Shown in pieces: positions 415-14,495 of a DNA stretch of 64,000 nt (the stretch's first letter is position 1; each line of letters starts with the position of its first letter). Source of the stretch: Halioglobus sp. (lineage in GTDB: Bacteria; Pseudomonadota; Gammaproteobacteria; Pseudomonadales; Halieaceae). The position numbers and the translations under genes are program-made. The notes below the pieces were generated by a model, which did not search any database, was not told the DNA's origin, and saw only the letters and a program-made list of their open reading frames with translations. Location: the NCBI GenBank assembly GCA_002699145.1, contig PABK01000012.1:1-64000 (forward strand). Reading direction: 5' to 3'.

Positions 415-3400
415 CTAGAAGCCGCGCCAGTCCTGCTCAGGCAACTGGACAGATACGCTGGTGCCAGAGGAGGTATCGATTTCTACCGTGCCGCCCAGGT
501 GAGCCGCAATTGCCTGGATCACAGAGAAGCCAGAGCCTGGCGGCGCCAACTCCAGGGCGTCCGGTTCCAGCCCGACACCATTGTCGCTGACCGTCAGGGT
601 GTATGAAAAGCGAGAGGTGGATTTGAGTAGTTCCTCGCTGAAGCGAATGATCAGGTATTTTGTCGAGAAATCGTTGTCGAAGGCATGAAACAGGCTATTC
701 TGCAGCAGTTCGAGCAAAACGACTGCCAGCGGAGCGCTGATGGTCGTGGGGATCAGTTTGTCGGGCAGATCGTTTACCGTGATAACGGTGGCAGAGTCGA
801 GCGGCGATTCTTCAAGCAATCGCGACAGGATAAAGTCACAGTACTCAAACAGATTTGCCTTGGGTTCGTCCGGCCCATAGAACGTGTAGTCCTCGAACGC
901 CGACAGCGCGTACATGCGTTTTGCCAGGCCATCGCCATGAATGACCAATGGCGACTCTCCGCTGGATTTACAGTCCGTGCCGGTAAAAACACCGACCAGG
1001 CCCAGTATCTCCAGTTTGTGATCGTAAGCCGACTGGAGAACCTCGTTCTGGTACTCGAGTTGCTCCTGCATATTGTCGTCAGCGATCTCTCCTTCGATAA
1101 ACATCTCATGGGCAAGTTCTTTCGCGCGCCGTTCGACAACATAGCTTGTATACACCCGGTGTACGTTCCACCAGAACACTAGTAGAGCGACGCCGTAGAG
1201 TGAATACGCCCACCATGTGCGCCACGGTGGCGGCAGAACTGTCAGGGAAAGTTCTGCTCCGTCCGGATCCCAAACACCGGAAGAGTTCGAGCCCTTGACT
1301 GTGAAGAGATACTCACCTGGAGGGAGGTTGGTGTAGGTTGTTGAGTTCTTGGTGCCGTTGTCGATCCATTTCGGGTCGAAGCCGTTTAGTTTGTATCGAT
1401 ACTCTCCTAGTCCAGGATGAAAAACGTCCATTGTGCTGAACTGTAGCGTGACTGAATGAGCGTGATGTGGAATTACAATTCCCTTCCTGAGTACTACTGG
1501 AGATAGCTCCCTTTCTTTGCCTTCATACAATGAAACGTATGTTAATCGCGTAGTGGGGATGCTAGATTCAATTCGAAAATCGCCGGGAAGAAAACTGTTG
1601 TAGCCGTTGGTTCCCCCAAAATATACATTACCTCTAGAGTCTTTGTATGCCGATCCATAGGTAAAGTCTTGATCTTGCAGGCCGTCAGCTACTGTGTACA
1701 GTTTTGTGAGTGAGCCGCCTGAGTCTAGATTTGCAATACCTTGACTAGTGGATAGCCAGATGTTGCCCGAGTGGTCCTGTTGTATGCTGTATACATTGAG
1801 GCCCTTCAATGGGGTCGTATAAGGCGCAGATTCAAGCTTTCTATAGTTTCTCCTGATACTGTCCTTGTTCCAACGATAAAGCCAATGGTGCCTTGTTCCT
1901 ATCCAGATATCTCCGGTGTGTGATTCGGTCAATGAATATACAAACGGTACATCGGTACTATCTTCTAACACAAGAGGAAGAAGCTCAAAGGCATCATACT
2001 CCTCTACATACCTGTAAATCTTGTCAACACATACTACAAGTAGTCCCAATGAACTGGAGTGAAAAACTAGATTGACCCGGCTTTCAGGAAGAAGGTCCTC
2101 CTCCAGCATGGATCGTGTAGACTCATTTCCCACTCTGACTAGACCGCTTCCAAATGTAGAGACCCAATACTCGGATTTGTCCGTATCCGGGTAGATGTGC
2201 ACTATCTGGCTTTCGCTCGTGTAGTCCGCAGAATGCGCATTGAAGTCTAGGGTATCTGCGTCTATAACTAGAATGCTTCCGCCGAAGAATCCTGCAATGA
2301 CCTTGTTTCCGAGAGTGGCCAGCGCTGTTACTCTCTGGTCTGGCAAGGAGGGATCGCTCGTATTTACAAACTTACCAACTGGAAAGTGTTCGCCTGAGGA
2401 CGAATTTCTTCTGAATAGACCGTGGTAAGTTCCTATCCATAAATTCCCGTTGTGGTCCTCGGTAAACGCAGTCACTTCCCCAGTTAATGGGCTGTTACGT
2501 GAATGAATGTACGAGAAAGGACTAAATGAAAGAATGCTCAAACCTTTGGTAGTGCATATCCACACATTGCTCCCGTCTGGATAAAGCGCGTATATATCTC
2601 TACTTGATAAGCCTGCTCCTTCATTGCTGATATCTTTGTAAGAAAGAAGCTGCTTATCAGAAATGTACAAACCATTGTCCGTTGCAATAAGAACGTGCTC
2701 AGAAGTAACCAGAATGTCAGAAATATGTACGGCGCTATCTCTCCGAATCTGCAGATATCCAATTATTGCTCCAGTAGTTGGGTCTACTTTGGCAATTTCT
2801 CCTTTCTCAGTGCTCAAGTACAAGTATCCGTTCGCATCGAACTCAAGATTTGAGACCTGAATGTTCCCATTGAGCTTTGTGCCACGTATAACAAATTTTT
2901 CTGCGACCTTTTCGGCCGTATTCAATCGGAACAACACACGATCACCAGCCACTATAAACTCATTGACCAAAACTTCTGCGATAGCTGTTGGCCTTCCGAT
3001 CTGCTCTGCCATTTCTTCACTGTTAAGCCAATATGCGTGCCTTTCAGTTTCCGGATAATAGAGCCAAAGCTTACTTTCGTCTCCCAGCCACATTGCGCCC
3101 GAAGTCGAGCTATACATGCTTGTGAAAAATCCTGTTGACCCAGGAAAAATACTCTTGAGATCGCGCCACTCACCAGTAGATCTATCCCACTCAAGCAGGC
3201 CCTTGCCGTATGTGGCTACCAGTATGTTCTTAGATTGGCTTTCTGAAATTCCTCTGACATCATACGGCGTAGAGTTAGTGTTTCTAGAGTTGGGAGCGCT
3301 ATAAGAGACTAAGCGGTTGCCATCGAATCTAAACAGGCCTTGCTGAGTGCCGATCCACAGTAGGCCCTCTGAGTCTCTCAGAACTCTAGTAACCGCAGCT

Positions 3401-3501
3401 TTCTGAAGAACTATTGGAAGATTCGAGTGAGTTATGTGAGGTTGAAGTGCTTGTGTGGTCTGGCTTAAAAAAAATAGAGTAAAAAAGTACAGAGGTAACA
3501 T
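415..3501 (-). CDS. Periplasmic-propeller sensor histidine kinase-like protein without a receiver domain
   Basis: About 1028 residues. The start chosen is the ATG at 3501, because it gives a clean Sec signal peptide (MLPLYFFTLFFLSQTTQA); a TTG at 3627 is also in frame but would put some 40 hydrophilic residues before it. Next come many two-component-regulator propeller repeats (pattern LWIGT..GLFR, VWICTTKGLS, IWIGTRHHW), a Y_Y_Y domain ending in LPPPWRTWW, and one membrane segment near residues 762-785. The cytoplasmic part has an ATPase with an N box (LELLQNS), a G1 box (DNGVGL) and a G2-like PGSGFSV. I see no standard H box: the dimerisation stretch reads SAYDHKLEILGL, so the phosphoacceptor is uncertain. 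It lies directly downstream of a related hybrid kinase and is probably co-transcribed. GC is well below that of the genes after 9 kb. Confidence 0.8.
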   Translation of the reverse strand: MLPLYFFTLFFLSQTTQALQPHITHSNLPIVLQKAAVTRVLRDSEGLLWIGTQQGLFRFDGNRLVSYSAPNSRNTNSTPYDVRGISESQSKNILVATYGKGLLEWDRSTGEWRDLKSIFPGSTGFFTSMYSSTSGAMWLGDESKLWLYYPETERHAYWLNSEEMAEQIGRPTAIAEVLVNEFIVAGDRVLFRLNTAEKVAEKFVIRGTKLNGNIQVSNLEFDANGYLYLSTEKGEIAKVDPTTGAIIGYLQIRRDSAVHISDILVTSEHVLIATDNGLYISDKQLLSYKDISNEGAGLSSRDIYALYPDGSNVWICTTKGLSILSFSPFSYIHSRNSPLTGEVTAFTEDHNGNLWIGTYHGLFRRNSSSGEHFPVGKFVNTSDPSLPDQRVTALATLGNKVIAGFFGGSILVIDADTLDFNAHSADYTSESQIVHIYPDTDKSEYWVSTFGSGLVRVGNESTRSMLEEDLLPESRVNLVFHSSSLGLLVVCVDKIYRYVEEYDAFELLPLVLEDSTDVPFVYSLTESHTGDIWIGTRHHWLYRWNKDSIRRNYRKLESAPYTTPLKGLNVYSIQQDHSGNIWLSTSQGIANLDSGGSLTKLYTVADGLQDQDFTYGSAYKDSRGNVYFGGTNGYNSFLPGDFRIESSIPTTRLTYVSLYEGKERELSPVVLRKGIVIPHHAHSVTLQFSTMDVFHPGLGEYRYKLNGFDPKWIDNGTKNSTTYTNLPPGEYLFTVKGSNSSGVWDPDGAELSLTVLPPPWRTWWAYSLYGVALLVFWWNVHRVYTSYVVERRAKELAHEMFIEGEIADDNMQEQLEYQNEVLQSAYDHKLEILGLVGVFTGTDCKSSGESPLVIHGDGLAKRMYALSAFEDYTFYGPDEPKANLFEYCDFILSRLLEESPLDSATVITVNDLPDKLIPTTISAPLAVVLLELLQNSLFHAFDNDFSTKYLIIRFSEELLKSTSRFSYTLTVSDNGVGLEPDALELAPPGSGFSVIQAIAAHLGGTVEIDTSSGTSVSVQLPEQDWRGF

Positions 3502-3635
3502 TCTACGACGAGCGGAACATTCCTGCTTATGAAAAGCGGCCCGGAGGTGTGCTTCGCTCAGACTGGCCTGGGTATATTGAAGTTCTAGAGGCGTCTCAGA
3601 CGGTCCGGCGTTTTGATTGATGCGCAATTCGCCAC

Positions 3636-6600
3636 TTATTGCTGTCGAACTTCAACAAAGGTCGATCCAAATTCGTCGACAAAGCTAAGGTAAGAAGCTT
3701 GCAATATTTCGACTTGGTCTTCTATGTTTTCCATCTTTCCTGCCTTGCTCAGTTTCTCAATATCGGCGCTAATTGTTCTAACTTTCTCTGCTCCAATATT
3801 AGCGCTCATAGACTTGATGGCGTGGGCCGCTCGAGACGCCTCTATGGAGTCATTTTCTGAAACGTGCTGAAAGAGTTCGTTCAACTTAAGAGCCATCTGG
3901 TCGCAGTAACCTTCGAATATTGAATCCAGTATCGGCTTGCCAGTTTGGCGTTCTACCTCTTTAATGCTCTCAATCGCGGAAAGATTGAATATTTCATCTC
4001 GTTCAGAGTTTTCAGTCTCCTGAGGTTCTGTAGACTCGACTATCTGAAATGCTTCAACAAAGGATTTTGAATCGGCGGTTGGGCGGGCAATCTTGTTGCC
4101 GAGAAGGCTCTCTATAGTTTTCTCTATATCGGCGAGTGAAAAGGGCTTATTGATGTATGCATCCATACCCGATGCCTCGCATCGTCTGCGATCATCTTCG
4201 TCAGAACCGGCTGTTAAGGCCACAATTGGGGTTGGCGCAGATTCTTGGGATTGCTCAAACTCCCGAATTTTCTTCGTGGATTCATATCCATCTAGTACTG
4301 GCATTTGGCAGTCCATGAATACAAGGGAATAATTTCCATTCTTGAATTTGTTAAGTGCAACCTGTCCGTTAATGGCTATCTCTACCTGATATCCTAAGAT
4401 CTGTAGCATTTCCATAACGATGCGTTGGTTAGTTTCGACGTCCTCAGCTACCAAAATACTTAGTCTAGGAGTGGCGGCTTTTGAGTTGTCTGCGGGCGCT
4501 AAGCCCGTTGATAATTCAGTAAGTGAATCCGCAAGGAGCAATTTTTGTAGCGCAGAAGACATTAATGGCTTACTAAGCATCTTCCACTTCCCAGCGAATG
4601 CCTCTGGTACGTTTGTATTGATCGGGACTAGTAGGATGTTAAGTTTTCCTGTTGCGTCATTAAGAGCTTGCGCGTCTATTTCAGAAAAGATTCCTTGATT
4701 GTAGTCCACCACAAGTAGATCACATTCTTTTTGATCAATGCCAAAAATGCCTTCTCTGCCAATCTGGATCACTGAGATTCTGAGACGTGCCAAGTGGCTG
4801 TCAATCATTTCAAAGACATAAGGGTTCTCTGTTAGGACTATTGCGGTTTTTCCAGATAAGTCTACGGTGCTTTGAGTAGTCTCCTTTGCGATTTCAAAAG
4901 GCATTGATAACGTAATTTTTGTGCCTTTCCCCACGGCGGAGTTCACGATGATGTCGCCACCCATCAGTTCAATGTAGTGACGGGATATGGAGAGGCCGAG
5001 TCCGGTACCTCCATATTCTCTGGTGGTGCTTGTATCCGCTTGTGTGAACGGTTCGAATACGCGATTTTGCGTATCCTCGTCCATGCCTATGCCATCATCT
5101 TCAACGCTAATATAGACCAAGGCGCGTTCTGGAGTGGACGAACTAAATTTCGGTTCTATGCGAACGTTGATATTTCCGTGATGAGTAAACTTGATCGAGT
5201 TGCTAACCAAATTCATTATAACTTGCCGCAATTTGGTTGGGTCGCCGAGCAACAGATAGGGAGTGTCAGGGTGGCATATATTGTTAAGTTCTAGTCCCTT
5301 GCGGGTTGCAGGTTCGCTCTGCAAATAACAAATATCGTCGATTAGTTCCGTTAGGTTGAATTCAACAGATTCAAGCTCTACTTTCGAAGCCTCTACCTTT
5401 GAGAAGTCTAAAATTTCATTGATCAGACCAAGAAGAGATTCCCCGCTTTTGTGAGCAGCGTTTGCAAACTGTTCCTGTTGGCTATTCAAGTTTGTGTGTA
5501 GCAGCAGTTCAGTCATGCCTATGATGCCGTGCATGGGTGTTCTAATCTCGTGACTCATTGTCGCTAAAAAGTCTGATTTGGCACGTGTCGCATCTTCAGC
5601 AATTTTCCTGGCTTCCTCTAAGTCTTTTGTTCTTTCTTCGACTCGAGTTTCAAGTTCGCGTTGGATTTCTAAAGCTTTGAAGGCTTTCCTTCTCTGCCGG
5701 TAGAAGTAATAAGCAATAATTCCAATCGCGACGATCGAGTAGACGATATATGCAGCGTTGCTCCGCCACGGTGGTGGGGCGACTATTATAGGAAGGCTTA
5801 ATCCATCCCAGTTCCATGTGCCGTCAGGACTGGCGGCCGCTAGTCGAAGCGTGTAGGTGCCAGGCGGCAGTGTGGTAAACGAGGCGACTCTGGAGTCAGG
5901 GGATATAACCCATTCAGGGTTTATGCCTTCTAGTTTATAGGCGTAGTTGATCAGATCTGGGCTGGAGTAGTCTGCTGCGAAAAATTCTACGGACAGCATG
6001 CGATCTTGATAGCCAAGTTCGATAGACTCTAGCGCGTGATATGGAGTCTCGAACTCGCGGCGCTGATTCATAACCTTGATCTGGGATATTGCGATTTTTG
6101 GTGGAACTCTTTCTAAGCTTAGTTCGCTAGGGTGGACGGTATTGAAGCCACTAATACCTCCAAAATAGATTGTCCCTGAGTCTGATCGGAAAGAGGCGCC
6201 CAGTGTGAACTCGGAAGCCTGCAAACCGTCTCTGACACCGTATTGGTGAACCTCCAAGTCAACCGGATTAATCCTAGTAAGACCTTTATTGTGAGAAACC
6301 CAGACCCACCCATTGTCATCACCCTGAATCCCGTAGATGTTAGAACTGGGCAGGGACATTTTCTCCGAAAATTGCTGTATAGCTAGTGTTAGATTCGCCC
6401 TGCTTTGGGCCGGCCACAGGTTAATTCCACCTCCAGCTGTGCCAATCCACAGCGTCCCATCTGAGTCTTCCCAGAAACACCAAGGCATATCGGACGAAAG
6501 AGAATCTGAGTCAGTTGGGTCGGCAAAAAAGCGTGTGAACTCAAGTGTCTGAATGTCAAGTTTGTTGAGACCGTTTTCTGTTCCTATCCATACGAAGCCC

Positions 6601-8138
6601 AATGAATCCTCGTATATCGCTAGTACTTCGTTGTTGCTGAGACTTGAGTTGCTATTTGGGTCGTGTGTCAGATTCAGAAAGGTTATGCCGTCGTCTCGTA
6701 AAATACTAAGGCCACCACCGTACGTCCCGACTAAGAACTGGCCAGTGGATAGTCTCAGCATCGAAGTAATGCCATTTGCGCCAATAGAGTTTGGTCGTAG
6801 GCTACTGTGGCGGTGAACTGTAACGTTTCCAGAAGTTAGATCTAGTTCATTCAGTCCACCTTCATAAGTGCCAACCCAAAGTTTGTCGTCATCGCTATAC
6901 AGGCTCATTACACGGGGATCAGAAATTGAGGGTGTAGTTGATTCGTTTATCCAAGTAAACGAATCGGACTCAGGGCGTAGTCTATTAAGGCCATCGTCTG
7001 TGCCGACCCAAAGGCTTTCATCAGGTGTTTCAGCGAACGCGTTGACAGAGTTGTTGGATAAATTGCCTTGAGCCTGATCAAATTTTTGAAAATCAGTTCT
7101 CATTCCGGATGCCAGGCCTGACATAGTACCGACCCAGTATTTTTTCTCTTGAGATTGGTAGACGCTAATAACTATGTCTTCGGGTAAGTTCGTGTTTTGC
7201 CTCGTGTATCTAACAAACTGTTCTGAATATTTGTCGTAGAAATTCAATCCTTCTATTGTGGCTACCCAAATATCGCCGTTCATGTCTTCGAATATGTCTG
7301 AAACTTTATTTGATGACAGTGAGCTTTGGTCAGCCATGGAATGCTGAAAAAATGTGGCGGATTCTGTTCTGGGATCAAACTTTGCTATTCCGGCATTGAG
7401 TGATGCCAGCCATATATATCCAGATCGATCAGTAATTATTCTATGGATTCCTCCAAGTATGCTTATCCCAGGGTCACTTTTGCCTTTAGAGATGATTCGA
7501 ACTTGGTTTTGCTGCGGGTTAACTTTCAGTAAGCCGGTAGATTCCGTAGCAGCCCATATGGTGCCGTCGGGAGTTTCAGTAAAGCTGCCGATTTCCCCAG
7601 TATAAGGGATGTTCCCATTGCCAGAGATGTAGTGATGAAACGAGCGGTCAGTGGGATTGAACTGGCTGAATCCGTTCGAATACCCGAGCCACAACATCCC
7701 CATAGAATCAGTGAAGACGGTATGAATATTGTTTGAGTAGGGTGTTTCTCTATTGTTTGGGTCGGCGTCAATTGCCTCAAAGCTATTGGAGATTGAATTG
7801 TAGAAAACTAGCCCTCTTCCAAACGTAGAGAGCCAGATATTGCCTGTTTTATCCTCTGTGATTCTTGTGATGAAGTTGGTTGGCAGGGAGCGAGGGTTGG
7901 AGGCTGAGTGGCGATAACTTTCCAATTCATGCCCATTGTATTTGTTTAGCCCTTCTTGAGTGACAAACCACAGTACGCCACGAGAGTCTTGGAAAGACTG
8001 CCTCACGCTGTGTTGAGTTAGCTTATCGGAAAAAACAGCGGGGTTGAGATTTACATCAACTAGTGGAAGTTCCGCTCCGTAAGTTGAGGCTGTCAACGAA
8101 AACAGTGCGATTAGAGCAAGATGATGTCGAAGCTTCAT
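3636..8138 (-). CDS. Hybrid sensor histidine kinase with periplasmic propeller, receiver and Hpt domains
   Basis: 1500 residues. A signal peptide (about 1-22) is followed by a long series of propeller repeats (to about 690; motifs such as [14 protein letters not shown] and [12 protein letters not shown]), a Y_Y_Y domain, a membrane span near 795-814 and a coiled coil ([19 protein letters not shown]). Then come HisKA with H863 in the motif [12 protein letters not shown], an HATPase ([26 protein letters not shown]), a degenerate receiver-like segment, a canonical receiver with acceptor D1276 ([12 protein letters not shown]), and a C-terminal Hpt with H1439 ([10 protein letters not shown]). This is a full phosphorelay protein whose last phosphate goes to an unlinked regulator. 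Unlike Bacteroidetes HTCS proteins it has no AraC output domain. The ligand is unknown. GC is lower than in most of the window, suggesting acquisition or different selection. Confidence 0.93.
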
Positions 8139-8221
8139 GTGTTTTTTAGCCAGGACATGATTGGAGGCTAGTTTAGGCCACTAGTTTATAGGCATAAAGC
8201 TATCAAACTCGCGCATTTATT

Positions 8222-8281
8222 AAAAAAAACAGAAAAAAACGCACCCCTCGGGGGAAGGCGTCCCCGAATTGGATGCGTTTT
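8222..8281 (-). terminator. Strong bidirectional hairpin terminator
   Basis: A GC-rich stem (about 8239-8254 with 8262-8278, with internal mismatches) is followed on the minus strand by seven T residues and a second T run. On the plus strand the other side also ends in a run of T. It lies between the repeat-protein gene (stop 8332) and the hybrid kinase (start 8138), so the two minus-strand genes are probably separate transcripts. Confidence 0.85.
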
Positions 8282-8331
8282 TCAGTTCGCGCTCTGGCCT
8301 TACGGCCGAGAAGAGCGATATTAAAGTCGCT

Positions 8332-8952
8332 TTATCCGCGACCCCAGCGATTGCCGGTCTGCTCGGAGAAGCTACCGCGACCCCAACGCTTGCCAGACTG
8401 CTCGGAGAAGCTACCGCGACCCCAACGCTTGCCAGACTGCTCGGAGAAGCTACCGCGACCCCAGCGCTTGCCAGACTGCTCGGAGAAGCTACCACGGCCC
8501 CAGCGCTTGCCGGACTGCTCGGAGAAGCTGCCGCGACCCCAACGCTTGCCAGACTGCTCGGAGAAGCTACCACGGCCCCAGCGCTTGCCGGACTGCTCGG
8601 AGAAACTGCCGCGGCCCCAGCGCTTGCCGGTCTGTTTGGCGACTCCGGCATTTGCAGATTGGTGAATGCCAGACTTGCTTTGGCCCCACTTGTAGCCACT
8701 TTGGGGCTCGGGAGAGTCGGCCCACATAGTGCGGGATTGATGGGAAGTTGAGGGGCTGCCCCACTTATTCCCAGACACAACCTTCCCAGTGTATTGCTGG
8801 GTGTTAGCCAGGGCATGGCTGACGCGGTGTACGAGGTTGCCAGATTCTGCCGACTGCCCCTGGAGGCCTTCAGCGAGGGACGTAGAGGGCGCGAGCAGTA
8901 CAAGTGCAGCACTTGTAATACCAGTGACCCCCATCTTCTTGATGGTTTTCAT
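8332..8952 (-). CDS. Secreted protein with seven 13-residue repeats carrying Gly-Lys-Arg junctions (unknown function)
   Basis: 206 residues, not recognised as a known family. The start ATG at 8952 has a good AGGAAG site 5-6 bases upstream. A Sec signal peptide (MKTIKKMG..., cleavage likely after SLA at about 27) is followed by a linker with degenerate W-G units (GNKWGSPS, GYKWGQSK). Then come seven copies of the unit SGKRWGRGSFSEQ (first copy begins TGKR) and a last partial unit, TGNRWGRG, ending at the stop. Between copies the DNA differs only at synonymous positions as far as I can see, so this frame is coding and the peptide is under selection. Each junction is Gly-Lys-Arg, which in animal peptide precursors is the dibasic cleavage plus amidation signal; here that is only a resemblance. 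The next gene upstream on the strand is a secreted subtilisin-like protease. Alternatives are a surface or cell-wall binding repeat protein, a cationic antimicrobial protein or a nucleic-acid-binding RG repeat. Confidence 0.85.
   Translation of the reverse strand: MKTIKKMGVTGITSAALVLLAPSTSLAEGLQGQSAESGNLVHRVSHALANTQQYTGKVVSGNKWGSPSTSHQSRTMWADSPEPQSGYKWGQSKSGIHQSANAGVAKQTGKRWGRGSFSEQSGKRWGRGSFSEQSGKRWGRGSFSEQSGKRWGRGSFSEQSGKRWGRGSFSEQSGKRWGRGSFSEQSGKRWGRGSFSEQTGNRWGRG
8362..8634 (-). repeat. Seven tandem 39-bp repeats inside the secreted repeat protein
   Basis: Seven head-to-tail units of exactly 39 bp, each starting CTCGGAGAA on the plus strand and encoding one 13-residue unit on the minus strand. 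Because 39 is a multiple of three, other frames are open too, which explains spurious plus-strand reading frames here. Units differ at wobble positions (for example CGT or CGC for Arg, GGT or GGC for Gly), so the array is not a very recent expansion. Confidence 0.95.
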
Positions 8953-9236
8953 AGTTACTTCCTGCCTTCTTGTTTAATAAAGCCCGGTCATACATGTGAC
9001 CGAGTTCTCCATTTGGGTCCTGACTAGGGACTCAGTTCGCACTCTTACGGCACGATACTTGACATGTTATACGGAAGTTGGCCGGGAAAGAATAGTTTTT
9101 GCTTTACCCTTTTTGGGGTAGGCCTTTGGCAAGGCGGCTCGGGGATCGCGGGCGAGGCGCCGGGACGCGCCTAAGGGGCTGATTTATTAAACATTAATTT
9201 CGCGGGAGAAGGGGGTTTGTGGCTGACCCGGGTGGG
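8953..9236 (-). promoter_or_regulatory. Leader region of the repeat-protein gene with an 18-bp palindrome
   Basis: This 284-base stretch between the protease gene and the repeat-protein gene contains no convincing gene. At 8985-9002 lies a perfect 6-bp inverted repeat, CGGTCA with TGACCG, separated by 6 bases, 33 bases before the start codon. It could be an operator or a leader hairpin. A TATAAC sequence on the minus strand near 9066-9071 could be a -10 element, but no good -35 is visible. The stretch CCTTTTTGGGGTAGG near 9109-9123 and the following GC-rich part could hold the end of the protease transcript; I see no clear terminator. Confidence 0.35.
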
Positions 9237-11273
9237 TCACTGGCCTTCCCCGGGGAGCGTATTTGCGGGCCCGGCTGCCGGTTTCCCGGGCTGCCGGAGG
9301 AGGTTGTCGATAGCGGCCTTCTCTGACAGGTACATTTCCTCCCAGTCGAACGCGGATTGAGCTGCCTGGGCGGACTCCTGGCCGCCTATATCCATTCTTT
9401 CTATATGGTCTTTGACTCCCCAGCGGCGCGTATCACTCATGCCTTGAGCGCTGGGTTCGCTGGCAACCATTTCCGCGAGCCCGGGGAGGCTGGGGTTATC
9501 GTCCTCGTCTATTATCGCCGGGCCGTAAAAATGCCTCTCTCCGGCGAGGTCAGCGGCGATATCGAGGTCCGTGTTGCCACAGCCGCGCTCGCCGAGGATG
9601 ACCGCCCGGGTCGCCGTGACATAGCCGTAGCCCTGCTCGAAGGGGCTGTACGCCAGCAGGCCATCGCGGTTGATGGCCGGTTCGGCGCTGGTTATCAGTT
9701 TGCACTTGATGTCGTCGGGGCTCAGGTCTGGCTCCAGTTGCAGCAGCAGGGCCGCAAAGCCGGACACCAGGGCGGCGGCCTGGGAGGAGCCGGTTGAGGC
9801 GTACTCTCCGCCGGCAAGGATGTCCTCCGGGGCGGATTCGGCGAGGTCCGAATCGGGGTGCACCAGGCCGGTCATGTGGCCGCCCAGGGCCACGATGTCG
9901 GGTTTGACGTGTCCGGCGGGCGTGGGGCCGCGGGAGGAAAAATCCGGAATGTAGTCGTCGTCGCGCGTGTCCGGTGTCCAGGAGTCGGTCACCGCGCCCA
10001 CGGTGATCACGTAGGGCAGGTTTCCCGGTGAGCCCACGGTCATCAGCTCGGGGCCGTCGTTGCCTGCCGCGGCGACGACGGTGATGCCCGCCGCCCAGGC
10101 GCGCATGGTCGCCTGGTTGACCGGGTCTTCCCAGTAATGCCAACGCGGCAACTGTGCGAAGGACAGGTTCAGCACACGGATATTGTACTTCTCCCGGTGG
10201 TCCACGACCCACTGAATACCGCGTACGATGTCCAGCAGGTGCGCCTTGCCCTCACGGTCGAGGATTTTTACCGCGACGATATTGGCGTCCGGCGCCACGC
10301 CCTTGAAGCTGCCGGTCGCCTGGCCGTTTTTCAGGGTGGGGCCGCTGTGCGCGACAATGCTGGTCATGTGGGTGCCGTGCCCACTCTCATCCAGCGCCTC
10401 CTGTCCGGCGGTGTCGGTAATCGCGTCGTAGCGCGCCAGCACACGGGGTTTGCCCTGCGTATTGTGCATGAGGGCAGGGTGCTCCCACAGCCCCGAGTCC
10501 ACCACGGCCACGGTGACTCCCTGGCCGCGGATGCCTTGCAGGTGCAGATCCGCGGCCCCGGATACCGTGCTGTAGTAGAAGTCTTCGTGATTGTTGTCGT
10601 ATCCCGGTACGAGGTCGGTGGAGCAATCGCCGACGAAGCTCGCATCCAGTTCGAAATCCCGCTGCCGCAGCGCTTGTAGCAGGGAACGGGCCTGCGGCGC
10701 GCTGAACCCGATGACGAGATCCTCCCTGCCCTCGATAAGTGGCGCAGACGCTGTCGGGAAGGAGATTTCCAGGCTGGAACCGGACTGGTCGCGGTACAGC
10801 TGCTGGTCGACAACCTGGTCGCCCAGCGCCAGGTGGGTGACCCTGCCCAGGGATTCGGGCCAGCTGATCGTGAGAGATTTCCAGCGCGCGGCCTGCTCCC
10901 GCTTGTTGTACAACGGCCAGGCGATCTGGTCGCCCCTGAAGTCGAGTTCCAGGTGGCCGCGAACACGGCAGGGCTCGTCGTCCTCCTCCGGCGGGTCGTC
11001 CTCGCCCAGGTCGTCTATGTGGCGCGCCACGAGTTCCGACTCGAGCGCCCGCTCCAGTTGCGCCCTGGACATCCTCGCGCCGACCGCGTCGATGATGTGC
11101 AGGCTGTGTGTCAGGGTGCCGCCGGTGTCCTCCACCAGTTGCGCCAGCTCCTGCGCGGAGGCGCCCTGCAGCAGGACGTGTAGCTCCTCTTTGGCTTCGG
11201 CGTCGGCGCGCGCGGCGTGGGCGCCGTGCAGCAGCAAGGCCGAGAGAAAAGCTGCCAGCGGGGCGTGCTTCAT
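9237..11273 (-). CDS. Secreted subtilisin-like (S8) serine protease with propeptide
   Basis: 678 residues. A signal peptide (about 1-24) precedes an I9-like propeptide (about 28-90, LHVLLQGASAQELAQLVEDTGG). The catalytic domain begins near 245, with Asp259 (VAVVDSGLW), His299 (ESGHGTHM), oxyanion Asn405 (AAAGNDGP) and Ser497 (STGSSQAAA, in place of the usual GTSMA). About 170 residues follow the catalytic Ser, including Pro/Ala-rich sequence and TRRWGVKD at 615-622, which resembles the KRWGRG core of the neighbouring repeat protein. The enzyme should act in the periplasm or outside the cell. It starts 16 bases after the stop of the REC-GGDEF-EAL gene and is probably co-transcribed with it. 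Its substrate is unknown; the adjacent Lys-Arg-rich repeat protein is a candidate by position only. Confidence 0.92.
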   Translation of the reverse strand: MKHAPLAAFLSALLLHGAHAARADAEAKEELHVLLQGASAQELAQLVEDTGGTLTHSLHIIDAVGARMSRAQLERALESELVARHIDDLGEDDPPEEDDEPCRVRGHLELDFRGDQIAWPLYNKREQAARWKSLTISWPESLGRVTHLALGDQVVDQQLYRDQSGSSLEISFPTASAPLIEGREDLVIGFSAPQARSLLQALRQRDFELDASFVGDCSTDLVPGYDNNHEDFYYSTVSGAADLHLQGIRGQGVTVAVVDSGLWEHPALMHNTQGKPRVLARYDAITDTAGQEALDESGHGTHMTSIVAHSGPTLKNGQATGSFKGVAPDANIVAVKILDREGKAHLLDIVRGIQWVVDHREKYNIRVLNLSFAQLPRWHYWEDPVNQATMRAWAAGITVVAAAGNDGPELMTVGSPGNLPYVITVGAVTDSWTPDTRDDDYIPDFSSRGPTPAGHVKPDIVALGGHMTGLVHPDSDLAESAPEDILAGGEYASTGSSQAAALVSGFAALLLQLEPDLSPDDIKCKLITSAEPAINRDGLLAYSPFEQGYGYVTATRAVILGERGCGNTDLDIAADLAGERHFYGPAIIDEDDNPSLPGLAEMVASEPSAQGMSDTRRWGVKDHIERMDIGGQESAQAAQSAFDWEEMYLSEKAAIDNLLRQPGKPAAGPANTLPGEGQ

Positions 11274-11289: not shown

Positions 11290-13125
11290 CTAGTTGTCGA
11301 CGACTTTTTTGAGTTGGCTTTTTACGACATTACTGATCTGCTGCGCAAAGTTTTCGCTCAGCATGGTCGGTACGTCCTCGGGGTAGAGCGGGCGCGAGAA
11401 ATAAAAGCCCTGCAACAGGTTGCACTCGTTCCTGACCAGGTAGGACAGGTGGCGCTCGTTCTCGATGCCCTCGGCGATCACACGCAGGTTCAGTGTTTTC
11501 GCCAGCGCCAGGATGGCGTCGACGATGGCGGCGCCGTCGGGCGTGTCCAGGTCGGAGATGAAACTCTGGTCGATCTTCAGCGTATCGATGGGAAAACGCT
11601 TCAGGTAACTCAGGGACGAGTAGCCGGTGCCGAAATCGTCCACTGCCAGGTCGACCCCCAGCGCCTTGAGTTCGCGCAGCCGGGCAATATTGGTTTCCGC
11701 GTCCGTCATGATCGCGCTTTCGGTGAGTTCCAGTTCCAGGCGCTCCGGCGGCAGGCCGGACCTGTCGAGGAAATGGGCTATCCACTCCGGCAGGTTGCGC
11801 TGGTTGAACTGCAGCGGTGAGATATTGACGCAAACGCGAAAGGGCTTCAGTCCGAGCTCGTCCCAGTACAGGCAATTGCGGGCCACCTCGTCCATGACCC
11901 ATTCGCCCAGCTCGATGATCTGTCCGGTACTCTCGGCGACCGGGATGAATTCGATCGGCGACACCATACCCCGCTTTGGGTGCTTCCAGCGCACCAGCGC
12001 CTCCATGCTGACCACCTCGCCGGAGCTCACGTCGATCTGGGGCTGGTAGCGAAGTTCCAGTTCATGATTGCGCATCGCATCGCGCAGCTCTTCTTCCATC
12101 TTGAGCTGCTCGACGGCCCTGGCGTTCATTTCCTCGTCGTAAAAACGGAAGCAGGCGCGCCCCTCGGCCTTCGCCACGTACATGGCGGTGTCGGCATTGC
12201 GCACCAGCGTATCGGCATCGGTGCCGTCCTGGGGGTAGAGGGCGATGCCCACGCTGGGGGTCACCACGGGGTTGTGCGACTGCAGCGCGATCGGTTCTGA
12301 CAGGCTGTCCAGTATGCGCCTGGCGACCCGTTCGATATCGGCGACGCCCTCGACGTCAGAGAGCACCACGGTGAACTCGTCGCCACCGAGCCTGGCGATT
12401 TCCGTGGAGCCGCCGTCGTCCTCTCCGCGCTCGGCGTCGTTGTCCGTGAAGTAGCTGATCGCGTCGTCCTCGCGCAGCTCCATCGTCAGCCGTTTGGCGA
12501 TCTCCACCAGCAGCCTGTCGCCGCGCGCATGGCCGATCGAATCATTGATGCGCTTGAAGTGATCAAGGTCGATGAACAGGAGGGCGGCGGACTTCTTGTG
12601 CCGCTGGGCGCGTTTCAGGATGCGGTTGAGTTGCTCGTTGAAACTGCGCCGGTTGGGCAGGCTGGTCAGCGGGTCGTAGTAGGCCAGGTAGCGCAGGCGA
12701 TCTTCCTGGCGCTTGAGCGAGTTGAACGCGTTGCTGGCGCGCAACATGTACTGGACGTCGCGGCCGAGCAGGGACCAGTTGACGGGCTTGGTCTTGTATT
12801 GCGTGGCGCCGGCCTCGAAGCCCTCGTCGATGGATTGCCGGTCATCGGAGCCGGTGACGATCATGATGGGAATGGACTCGCCCTGGGGCAGCTGGCGTAT
12901 GCGCTGGCAGGCTTCCAGGCCGGTCATGCCCGGCATCTCCACGTCGAGGAAGACGAGGTCGGGCCGCTCGCGCACGAAGATGTCCACCGCCTCCAGGCCA
13001 TCGGATGCCTCGACCACGGTCATGCCTTCGGCTTCGAGGCACTGGCGGGTCAGGAGGCGCACATTCTGGTCGTCATCACAGACCAGGATCTTCGCCTGGT
13101 GATGGTTGCTGTCGTTGCTGGACAT
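11290..13125 (-). CDS. Response regulator with GGDEF and EAL domains (c-di-GMP turnover)
   Basis: About 611 residues from the ATG at 13125 (MSSNDSNHHQAKILVCDDD); the frame is open to 13242, but that extension overlaps the divergent gene and precedes the natural receiver start. An N-terminal receiver has acceptor D61 (DLVFLDVEMPGMTG) and a conserved Lys (KTKP). The GGDEF domain keeps RLGGDEFTVVL near residue 246 and the EAL domain keeps MEALVRWKHP near 373, plus the DDFGTGYSS and EGIE motifs, so both synthesis and hydrolysis of c-di-GMP are possible. It is a plausible output for an unlinked phosphorelay, and its own kinase is not encoded next to it. The S8 protease gene follows after 16 bases. 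Confidence 0.93.
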   Translation of the reverse strand: MSSNDSNHHQAKILVCDDDQNVRLLTRQCLEAEGMTVVEASDGLEAVDIFVRERPDLVFLDVEMPGMTGLEACQRIRQLPQGESIPIMIVTGSDDRQSIDEGFEAGATQYKTKPVNWSLLGRDVQYMLRASNAFNSLKRQEDRLRYLAYYDPLTSLPNRRSFNEQLNRILKRAQRHKKSAALLFIDLDHFKRINDSIGHARGDRLLVEIAKRLTMELREDDAISYFTDNDAERGEDDGGSTEIARLGGDEFTVVLSDVEGVADIERVARRILDSLSEPIALQSHNPVVTPSVGIALYPQDGTDADTLVRNADTAMYVAKAEGRACFRFYDEEMNARAVEQLKMEEELRDAMRNHELELRYQPQIDVSSGEVVSMEALVRWKHPKRGMVSPIEFIPVAESTGQIIELGEWVMDEVARNCLYWDELGLKPFRVCVNISPLQFNQRNLPEWIAHFLDRSGLPPERLELELTESAIMTDAETNIARLRELKALGVDLAVDDFGTGYSSLSYLKRFPIDTLKIDQSFISDLDTPDGAAIVDAILALAKTLNLRVIAEGIENERHLSYLVRNECNLLQGFYFSRPLYPEDVPTMLSENFAQQISNVVKSQLKKVVDN

Positions 13126-13214
13126 TACTGCTGGCGGTGCCCGGTGTGTCTGGCTTTCGTGGTAGGCTATCATTACTGGAACCTGCCGCATAGTGGAATA
13201 AGAACATACGCGGC

Positions 13215-14495
13215 ATGGGCTTTGGCAGGGGTGTTTCCGCACAGTTTTCGGGGGAGATGATCGGCGCGATGCAACTGTATCCCGCGGCGCTGCTTAGGCT
13301 GCTGCCGCCCGCCGTCGTTACCGGGGCTGCGCTGTGGGGCCGCGCCTACCTGCCCGGCCTCGGCGGCGAGGCCAGGGTGATCCTGGAGTACCTGCCGTAC
13401 CTGCTCTGCCTGGTCGCGGTGTGCATGGCCTGTCAGTTCAATCGCGCCAGGATGCTGCTGGCGGCCGTTGCCGTGGCGGCATTCTACTGGGCGGTGCAGC
13501 GCGACCTGCAGGTCAGCCTGGCGGAGGCGGAGGCGGCGCGCGCCTACCTCGCGTTCAGTCTCGCGCTGCCCCTGCTCACACTCTACCTGCTGCTTGTGCC
13601 CGAACGGGGCATCCTCAACTACCGCGGGCTTGCCACCGGCGCGGGCTTTGTCCTGTTGCTGCTGGTGGCTACCACCCTGGGGCCGCGCCTGGCTGAGGTG
13701 AACGCGGCGGCGGCGCAGTACTACGCGGCCTGGCCCGCGCCTGGCTACGTCATGTCCCGCGGCGCCAGCCTGCTGGCGGCGCTGGTACTGCTGGCCGGGC
13801 TGGTCATCCTGACCCTGCGTCACGAGGAGTCGGACGCGGCGCTGTTGGGGGCGTTTCTCGCCCAGTATCTCGCGCTGGCGTTGCTGCACCTGCCCCAGGT
13901 GTCGCTGGCGATGGGGCTGGCGGCGGCCCTGTGCGTCTTGTGGGGGGTGCTGCGCAGCTCCCACGCCATGGCCTACCGCGACGAACTGACCGGGCTGCCG
14001 GGTCGCCGCGCCCTGAATGAACGGCTCAAAATGCTCGGCCGCAGCTATGTCATCGGCATGCTGGATGTGGATCACTTCAAGCGCTTCAACGACACCTACG
14101 GCCACGATGTCGGCGACCAGGTGTTGCGCCTGGTCGCCTCGAGGATTCGCACCGTGCGCGGCGGCACCGCCTACCGCTATGGCGGCGAGGAGTTTTGCGT
14201 GGTGTTCCCGCGGCGTACGCTGGAGGAGAGCGCCGCGGCGCTGGACGCGATGCGCGATGAGGTCGCCAACTACCGCATGTCGTTGCGCGATCGCAACCTG
14301 CGGCCGGAAAATCGCCGCCAGGGCAGCCGTCGGCGAGGCGCCACGCGCCTGGGCGCCGACCAGGTCTCGGTCACGGTCAGCGCGGGGTTGGCGGCCCGCG
14401 ACGATGAAAAACCCGACCCCGGGTCCGTTATAAAGTCAGCGGATGCAATGCTCTACAAGGCCAAGCGCGCCGGCCGCAACCGCGTCGCGTATTGA
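13215..14495 (+). CDS. Membrane diguanylate cyclase (GGEEF)
   Basis: Up to 426 residues. The N-terminal half is hydrophobic with roughly seven or eight membrane segments (for example YLPYLLCLVAVCMA, GFVLLLLVATTL, LLAALVLLAGLVIL) and no recognised sensor domain. The C-terminal half is a GGDEF domain with DELTGLPGRRALNERL, DVDHFKRFNDTYGHDVGDQVL and the active-site motif RYGGEEFCVVF near residue 323. No RxxD inhibitory site is visible five residues before GGEEF. The start is uncertain: ATGs at 13215, 13257 and 13269 are in frame, and a GGGGGAG stretch ends right at 13256, so 13269 is a reasonable alternative. It is divergent from the REC-GGDEF-EAL gene. Confidence 0.9.
   Translation: MGFGRGVSAQFSGEMIGAMQLYPAALLRLLPPAVVTGAALWGRAYLPGLGGEARVILEYLPYLLCLVAVCMACQFNRARMLLAAVAVAAFYWAVQRDLQVSLAEAEAARAYLAFSLALPLLTLYLLLVPERGILNYRGLATGAGFVLLLLVATTLGPRLAEVNAAAAQYYAAWPAPGYVMSRGASLLAALVLLAGLVILTLRHEESDAALLGAFLAQYLALALLHLPQVSLAMGLAAALCVLWGVLRSSHAMAYRDELTGLPGRRALNERLKMLGRSYVIGMLDVDHFKRFNDTYGHDVGDQVLRLVASRIRTVRGGTAYRYGGEEFCVVFPRRTLEESAAALDAMRDEVANYRMSLRDRNLRPENRRQGSRRRGATRLGADQVSVTVSAGLAARDDEKPDPGSVIKSADAMLYKAKRAGRNRVAY

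Follow-up and report, generated by a model that had tools for sequence, protein, structure and literature searches.

The window, by which we mean the whole 64,000-nt stretch of Halioglobus DNA that was analysed, raises the question of what a small secreted protein with a run of near-identical tryptophan-containing units, here called REP, does beside a gene for a subtilase. An earlier note had read it as the precursor of amidated peptides released at dibasic sites. We favor another answer, to which we assign a probability of about one half, namely that REP is the detached array of a module consisting of subtilase, propeller sensors and c-di-GMP enzymes, and serves as its multi-copy ligand or substrate. 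The gene set is conserved, the catalytic residues of the subtilase are intact and the core of the repeat is under selection. The position, strand, length and Sec-type start first given for the gene (the signal judged by eye) are all correct, and its features are as follows:

8332..8952, minus strand: REP, secreted Trp-repeat protein of 206 aa (repeat search and homologue matches)
8869..8952, minus strand: Sec-type signal peptide, about residues 1-28 (judged by eye; relatives have similar hydrophobic N-termini)
8806..8832, minus strand: VHRVSHALA, conserved block behind the signal, residues 41-49 (alignment consensus VHxVSHxLA)
8758..8772, minus strand: degenerate unit GNKWG, residues 61-65 (W64 invariant in 34 aligned rows)
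8683..8697, minus strand: degenerate unit GYKWG, residues 86-90 (sequence and alignment)
8335..8631, minus strand: tandem array, seven 13-aa units and a final unit ending at W+3, residues 108-206
8242..8260, minus strand: terminator-like hairpin 3' of REP (consensus scan only)
8983..9004, minus strand: terminator-like hairpin in the gap between subtilase and REP (consensus scan only)

The array reads TGKRWGRGSFSEQ, then six copies of SGKRWGRGSFSEQ, then TGNRWGRG. Tandem Repeats Finder describes it as 7.5 copies of a 39-nt repeat with 91% matches, and its score of 474 is the highest of the six repeat rows in the window. Seven units contain GKRWGRG and the last contains GNRWGRG, so that the claim of a Gly-Lys-Arg at every junction holds for seven junctions and fails for the last, which is G-N-R. 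The two degenerate units, which the note passes over, lie N-terminal of the array and have no K-R before the tryptophan. DNA changes between copies are mainly synonymous, as had been noticed (pS 0.335, pN 0.019), and amino-acid changes occur in the first unit (T for S) and in the last (T and N). The gene's own genome gave a single REP match.

That the protein belongs to no recognised family is true for Pfam, where the best match was Clavanin (E 0.048, below its cut-off) with nothing else at E<=1 and no curlin or other repeat family, and for NCBIfam, where no family matched. A profile search of the PDB gave lysostaphin (6rk4, E 5.7e-7). The lysostaphin proregion has 13-aa repeats, and we take this match as a common repeat period and not as kinship. 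In an Rfam scan of 7000-10500 the single match was ASdes, whose 25.7 bits fall short of the gathering score of 40, and it was disregarded. The consensus scan placed five terminator-like sites in 8100-9300, compared with a mean of 1.4 in shuffles. Other frames are open across the array because of the 39-nt period, namely 8220-8912 (minus, 230 aa), 8269-8751 (plus, 160 aa) and 8273-8665 (plus, 130 aa); they probably mirror the repeat and are not genes.

Stand-alone REP was restricted to Halieaceae-type loci in the samples searched. At E<=0.1 there were matches in 53 of 96 related genomes and in 47 of the 60 from the same family, some of them weak in both cases, while the six matches outside the family were all weak (E 0.001-0.09). 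Thirteen of the 60 same-family genomes, one of them a single contig, gave no match at this threshold, and a REP profile of 34 rows run over 369 genomes of the class found the window's own gene only. When a named collection was searched with the subtilase as anchor and the best 80 of 164 matches were kept, the loci came from Halioglobus, Haliea, Parahaliea, Luminiphilus, Pseudohalioglobus, Seongchinamella and further Halieaceae. "Halieaceae-type" here includes several records labelled just Gammaproteobacteria.

The unit consensus of 58 arrays is [SN]-x-[AS]-[DE]-Q-x-[GA]-[YSFN]-[KR]-W-[G mostly]-x-[R mostly], with a conserved core Q-x-[GA]-x-[KR]-W-x-x-R. Counted from the tryptophan, W-5 is Q in 57 arrays, W-1 is K or R in all 58 consensuses, G occupies W+1 in 44, and at W+3 there is R in 46 arrays and one of N, S, D, K, G and Q in the other 12. 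G-K-R before the tryptophan is found in one of the 58 consensuses, that of the window, and a dibasic pair of any kind in 11. Lys-Arg is therefore not shared by relatives while W-G is, which is the outcome that the note itself had named as refuting its idea, and the dibasic, amidated precursor fails; the array-bearing subtilases described below agree, since 36 of their 37 arrays have no dibasic pair. The alternative offered in the same note, that the whole protein binds something through its motif, survives. Most arrays have a period of 13, with spacings of 11, 12, 13 or 15 across lineages, and the core varies by species (YKWGIR, SRWIIR, NRWGRR, YRWALR, KRWGRG). The locus L057, outside the 58-array set, has GYIWGIR units with I at W-1, as in some fused arrays.

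Within arrays the cores hardly vary. In chains of period 13, to which this analysis was confined and in which W is fixed by construction, the mean entropy is 0-0.05 bit at W-5 and W-3 to W+3, and 0.26-0.55 in the linker at W-9 to W-6 and W-4. The copies of a REP array differ synonymously by 0.08-0.83, and in all 44 period-13 arrays that offer four or more usable units pN/pS stays under 1, with a median of 0.105. As the cores are near-invariant despite this synonymous divergence, the copies are kept under selection, and the description of a secreted multi-copy protein with near-identical, selected units is borne out. The protein ends exactly at W+3 in 43 of 48 complete REP proteins (13 of 61 are cut at contig ends and were left out), the exceptions being L070, L080, L129 (stop at W+2), L112 and L030. 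L112 and L030 carry short additional tails past W+3/W+2.

These observations could also be explained if REP were a multi-copy peptide signal, cut between its units (e.g., after W+3) by the subtilase or another envelope protease to release near-identical 13-aa peptides that the Reg_prop proteins sense. The Sec-type start, the protease gene next door, and cores that are near-identical inside an array and different between species would all fit, as would the arginine at W+3 in most arrays and a C-terminus where the cut would fall. In Bacillus, the signal CSF is made by subtilisin, Epr and Vpr, according to the title of a study cited in PMC11343458. On the other hand, a conserved dibasic site is absent, W+3 is a residue other than R in 12 of 58 arrays, and the common end at W+3 may only reflect expansion of the repeat within the array. 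Together with the sister clade discussed below, this leads us to regard cleavage into peptides as possible but doubtful.

The genes around REP, and two features of the subtilase needed below, are these:

11290..13242, minus strand: REC-GGDEF-EAL protein, upstream of the subtilase (Pfam, synteny)
9237..11273, minus strand: S8 subtilase, 678 aa (Pfam Peptidase_S8 2.6e-52; alignments; model)
10623..10970, minus strand: Cys-bounded insert of the subtilase, C102-C217 (C-x(95-130)-C before the catalytic Asp)
9396..9437, minus strand: single C-terminal motif SDTRRWGVKDHIER of the subtilase, residues 613-626, resembling the repeat unit
3636..8138, minus strand: hybrid histidine kinase with Reg_prop/Y_Y_Y sensor part, receiver and Hpt, 1500 aa (Pfam, synteny)
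415..3627, minus strand: second Reg_prop/Y_Y_Y protein, with HATPase_c, 1070 aa (Pfam, synteny)

This order, GGDEF-EAL, subtilase, REP and Reg_prop sensors, is the usual one. Of the 66 Halieaceae-type loci, four have too little downstream DNA, and in 61 of the remaining 62 REP, whole or cut by a contig end, lies immediately 3' of the subtilase, so the neighbouring protease is indeed conserved in relatives. At L085, a Halioglobus MAG, there is a subtilase with the tail motif and no REP within about 2.5 kb downstream, by loss or misassembly. Regions of up to 20 kb each contain a GGDEF-EAL homologue in 35 of 35 cases and an S8 subtilase homologue in 34, the exception, L064, not being a REP locus. 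A Reg_prop kinase homologue follows REP in 25 of 31 usable regions, with L064 and three regions that end too early (L039, L060 and L061) left out. The six Halieaceae regions without an adjacent sensor come from same-genus genomes, five of which have a sensor orthologue elsewhere (59-63% identity); in the sixth, which is 87% complete, none was found.

The linkage of REP to the subtilase (61/62) is thus tighter than that to the sensor (25/31), which would be expected if REP were a partner of the protease only, inhibiting it, stabilising it or feeding it substrate, with the nearby sensors incidental. The half of the array-bearing subtilase genes without a nearby sensor (17/34, see below) speaks for the same explanation. 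Yet an unlinked sensor is kept in five of the six genomes mentioned, and Reg_prop neighbours recur in the sister clade, at the other 17 of 34 genes, and for a role confined to the protease we see little probability.

At E<=1 the sole Pfam match of the subtilase itself is Peptidase_S8, and a convertase P domain is not hit. D259, H299 and S497 are invariant across the subtilase alignments, and the predicted structure has a mean pLDDT of 80. Between propeptide and catalytic domain sits the Cys-bounded insert of about 115 aa, unnamed in Pfam, which is present in 66 of 66 Halieaceae-type subtilases. All 50 matches listed by Foldseek for the subtilase model are subtilases, and none names the insert. 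Halieaceae-type subtilases bear no array; most have a conserved tail, S-x-x-R-[RK]-W-G-[VI]-K-x-H. In the L050 subtilase a second motif, PGYQWG, stands directly behind the tail motif.

Outside the Halieaceae, the array is found on the protease. L131 and L132 hold subtilases in which GTMWNN-type units follow one another, and a Reg_prop gene lies back to back with each. A query of the L132 type, including its array, found matches at E<=1e-70 in 4 of 369 class genomes (the window's own included), in 14 of 117 and 6 of 85 genomes of the orders of two of these genomes, and in the one genome of the order of a third; a similar query at E<=1e-60 found 2 of 299 phylum genomes, one of them the window's. 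The fused-array subtilases are 44-57% identical to L132. Array-less relatives may be under-sampled, as the query itself ends in the array; the array-less subtilase of the window was also recovered by an array-ending query (1.4e-100). A separate search of the class for hexamer arrays hit 12 of 369 genomes, low-complexity frames among the hits. Five regions, drawn from four of the 12 genomes, were inspected, and two of them contained an S8, whole or in part, that bears an array.

Each of the 34 sister-clade subtilases counted shows three or more G-x-x-W-type motifs within its last 260 residues. The catalytic D, H and S are present in 35 of 37 fused subtilases by regular expression, and the Cys-bounded insert is present in none of 36. 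The fused consensus is G-Y-[TLIVM]-W-[ST]-[QND], and of 300 spacings 242 are 6, 28 are 12, 11 are 11 and 7 are 15. In L211 the units are QGYTWGGR-type and 11-12 residues apart, close to the REP unit. Basic residues are scarce, 18 of 37 fused arrays having none and 29 at most two, and this, with the very attachment of the array to a protease in the sister clade, argues further against release of peptides by cleavage.

A Reg_prop protein lies within 4.5 kb of 17 of the 34 fused-array genes, a proportion that has no base rate from other subtilases beside it; among the 17 without one, a few are cut by contig ends. Four more fused genes, outside the count of 34 (L164, L190, L211 and the second of L194), adjoin a gene homologous to the first kinase of the window. 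The L215 stretch combines a subtilase bearing two GVVWNN units with a Reg_prop-like frame. By Pfam, the neighbour is Reg_prop-Y_Y_Y-GGDEF in L189 and REC-GGDEF-EAL in L184. Twenty neighbours of sensor-less fused genes are mostly unrelated proteins in Pfam, with two GGDEF-EAL proteins, and the unrelated ones count against a universal link to sensors.

The regularity of the repeats brings up a structural or adhesive role, in which units would stack as a solenoid or an amyloid-like fibre, with ladders of Gln and aromatic residues, that coats the cell and tethers the protease by its single motif. The nearly invariant Q at W-5, the period of 13 in most arrays and the predominance of 6 and 12 among fused spacings would suit stacking, and the predicted structure of REP shows weak alternating strands. 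Curli repeats have Q-x-G spacing, which is likewise found inside the REP unit. Against this, the REP model reaches pLDDT 70 at no residue (mean 49, pTM 0.21), the spacing moves among 11, 12, 13 and 15 by lineage, REP matches neither curlin nor another repeat family in Pfam, and the neighbours in the window that were searched in Pfam are not fibre-export genes. We consider a fibre rather improbable.

Free and fused arrays can be linked through the tail of the Halieaceae-type subtilases. The tryptophan of the tail motif stands 34 aa past the GPA block in 59 of 66 of them, and in 18 of the 23 fused subtilases (of 36) with a recognised GPA block the first array tryptophan stands 22-33 aa past it. 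The tail motif was first ranked with a PSSM among 2671 windows centred on W, and the outcome was diffuse, since tails that are homologous do not count as independent. When one score was given to each of 41 conserved Trp columns, from four protein families of the locus, the tail-motif column scored best against the repeat profile (-3.7; next -9.0). The resemblance is short, and W-5 differs, being S in the tail and Q in the repeat. In a tree with midpoint rooting (row L215 left out), each of the two groups, Halieaceae-type and fused, is set off by a branch of its own (99/97 and 100/98). The two clades are thus separate, so that the Cys-bounded insert counts as one event and not as 66, and with sister clades and midpoint rooting the direction, detachment or fusion, is not established. 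The two kinds of subtilase are homologous, with their arrays in cis or in trans.

We therefore return to the reading of REP as a detached array. The locus would encode an envelope module made up of an exported S8 subtilase, the array, propeller sensors of the Reg_prop/Y_Y_Y type and c-di-GMP enzymes, REP being the stand-alone form of the array that sister subtilases bear C-terminally. Array and subtilase would both be exported, the chain of the array would be largely unfolded, as its low mean pLDDT, though no proof of disorder, may suggest, and each [GA]-x-[KR]-W-x-x-R core could serve for binding as a short motif. The subtilase would engage the array in trans, or in cis where the two are fused, and the propeller sensors could read the array, whole or trimmed, and adjust c-di-GMP output. 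Signalling to c-di-GMP is suggested by the domains of neighbouring proteins, Reg_prop-Y_Y_Y-GGDEF in L189 and REC-GGDEF-EAL in L184 and the window. A more specific proposal, that this is a Gram-negative peptide-type signalling system in which near-identical, species-specific peptides, trimmed from the array by the subtilase or presented by it whole, act on periplasmic beta-propeller sensors with c-di-GMP as output, we hold to be unlikely; if it were true, sister groups would carry the same signal on the protease itself.

Reg_prop/Y_Y_Y sensors are widespread, and to our knowledge those in Gammaproteobacteria are mostly without a known ligand. The REP motif would be a concrete ligand candidate for them, as it is conserved, secreted, multi-copy and encoded with the sensors, free or as the tail of a protease, and the system offers a testable link from envelope proteolysis to c-di-GMP.

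Several known systems resemble parts of this arrangement. Kex2/alpha-factor and the dibasic prohormones of animals share with REP a signal peptide, tandem units and a subtilase-family protease, but REP lacks a conserved dibasic site and its subtilase a convertase P domain match. In Bacillota, the accessible part of PMC11343458 describes multi-copy Phr pheromone propeptides (Rap-Phr, RRNPPA), which like REP are secreted and made of repeated peptide units, and which, as precursors, are matured by extracellular proteases. REP units are 13 aa, in up to about 20 copies. The receptors of Phr are RRNPPA proteins, which are cytoplasmic as far as the part of PMC9765709 available to us goes, whereas the REP gene adjoins periplasmic-type Reg_prop sensors; no RRNPPA (TPR) receptor gene was seen among the four neighbours in the window searched in Pfam (S8, two Reg_prop kinases and REC-GGDEF-EAL). 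GdpX2 and GdpX3 of Xanthomonas oryzae are Reg_prop-linked GGDEF proteins of "unknown function" (PMC6637768, accessible part), similar to the module in their sensor domains and, as in L189, in their GGDEF output, but the accessible part of that paper ties no repeat protein or subtilase to them. The fused-array subtilases of other Gammaproteobacteria resemble the REP locus in a homologous protease, a similar motif and a frequent Reg_prop neighbour; they differ in carrying the array in cis, in a spacing of mostly 6, in few basic residues and in having no Cys-bounded insert. Literature searches, which covered few subscription papers, returned no relevant paper on subtilases with Halieaceae, propeller regulators or tryptophan repeats. 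Multi-copy pheromone precursors and Reg_prop-linked GGDEF proteins are thus known, and the gene set itself matches nothing found in the literature searched.

Fused-array subtilases can be numerous within one genome. G524 holds seven (in L185, L193, L194, L195 and L197) and G479 five (L187, L196, L198, L199 and L207), and several of these copies have unrelated neighbours. Many of the fused subtilases in L184-L204 end, after the array, roughly in [IV]-[ND]-x-W-V-x-[QH]-E.
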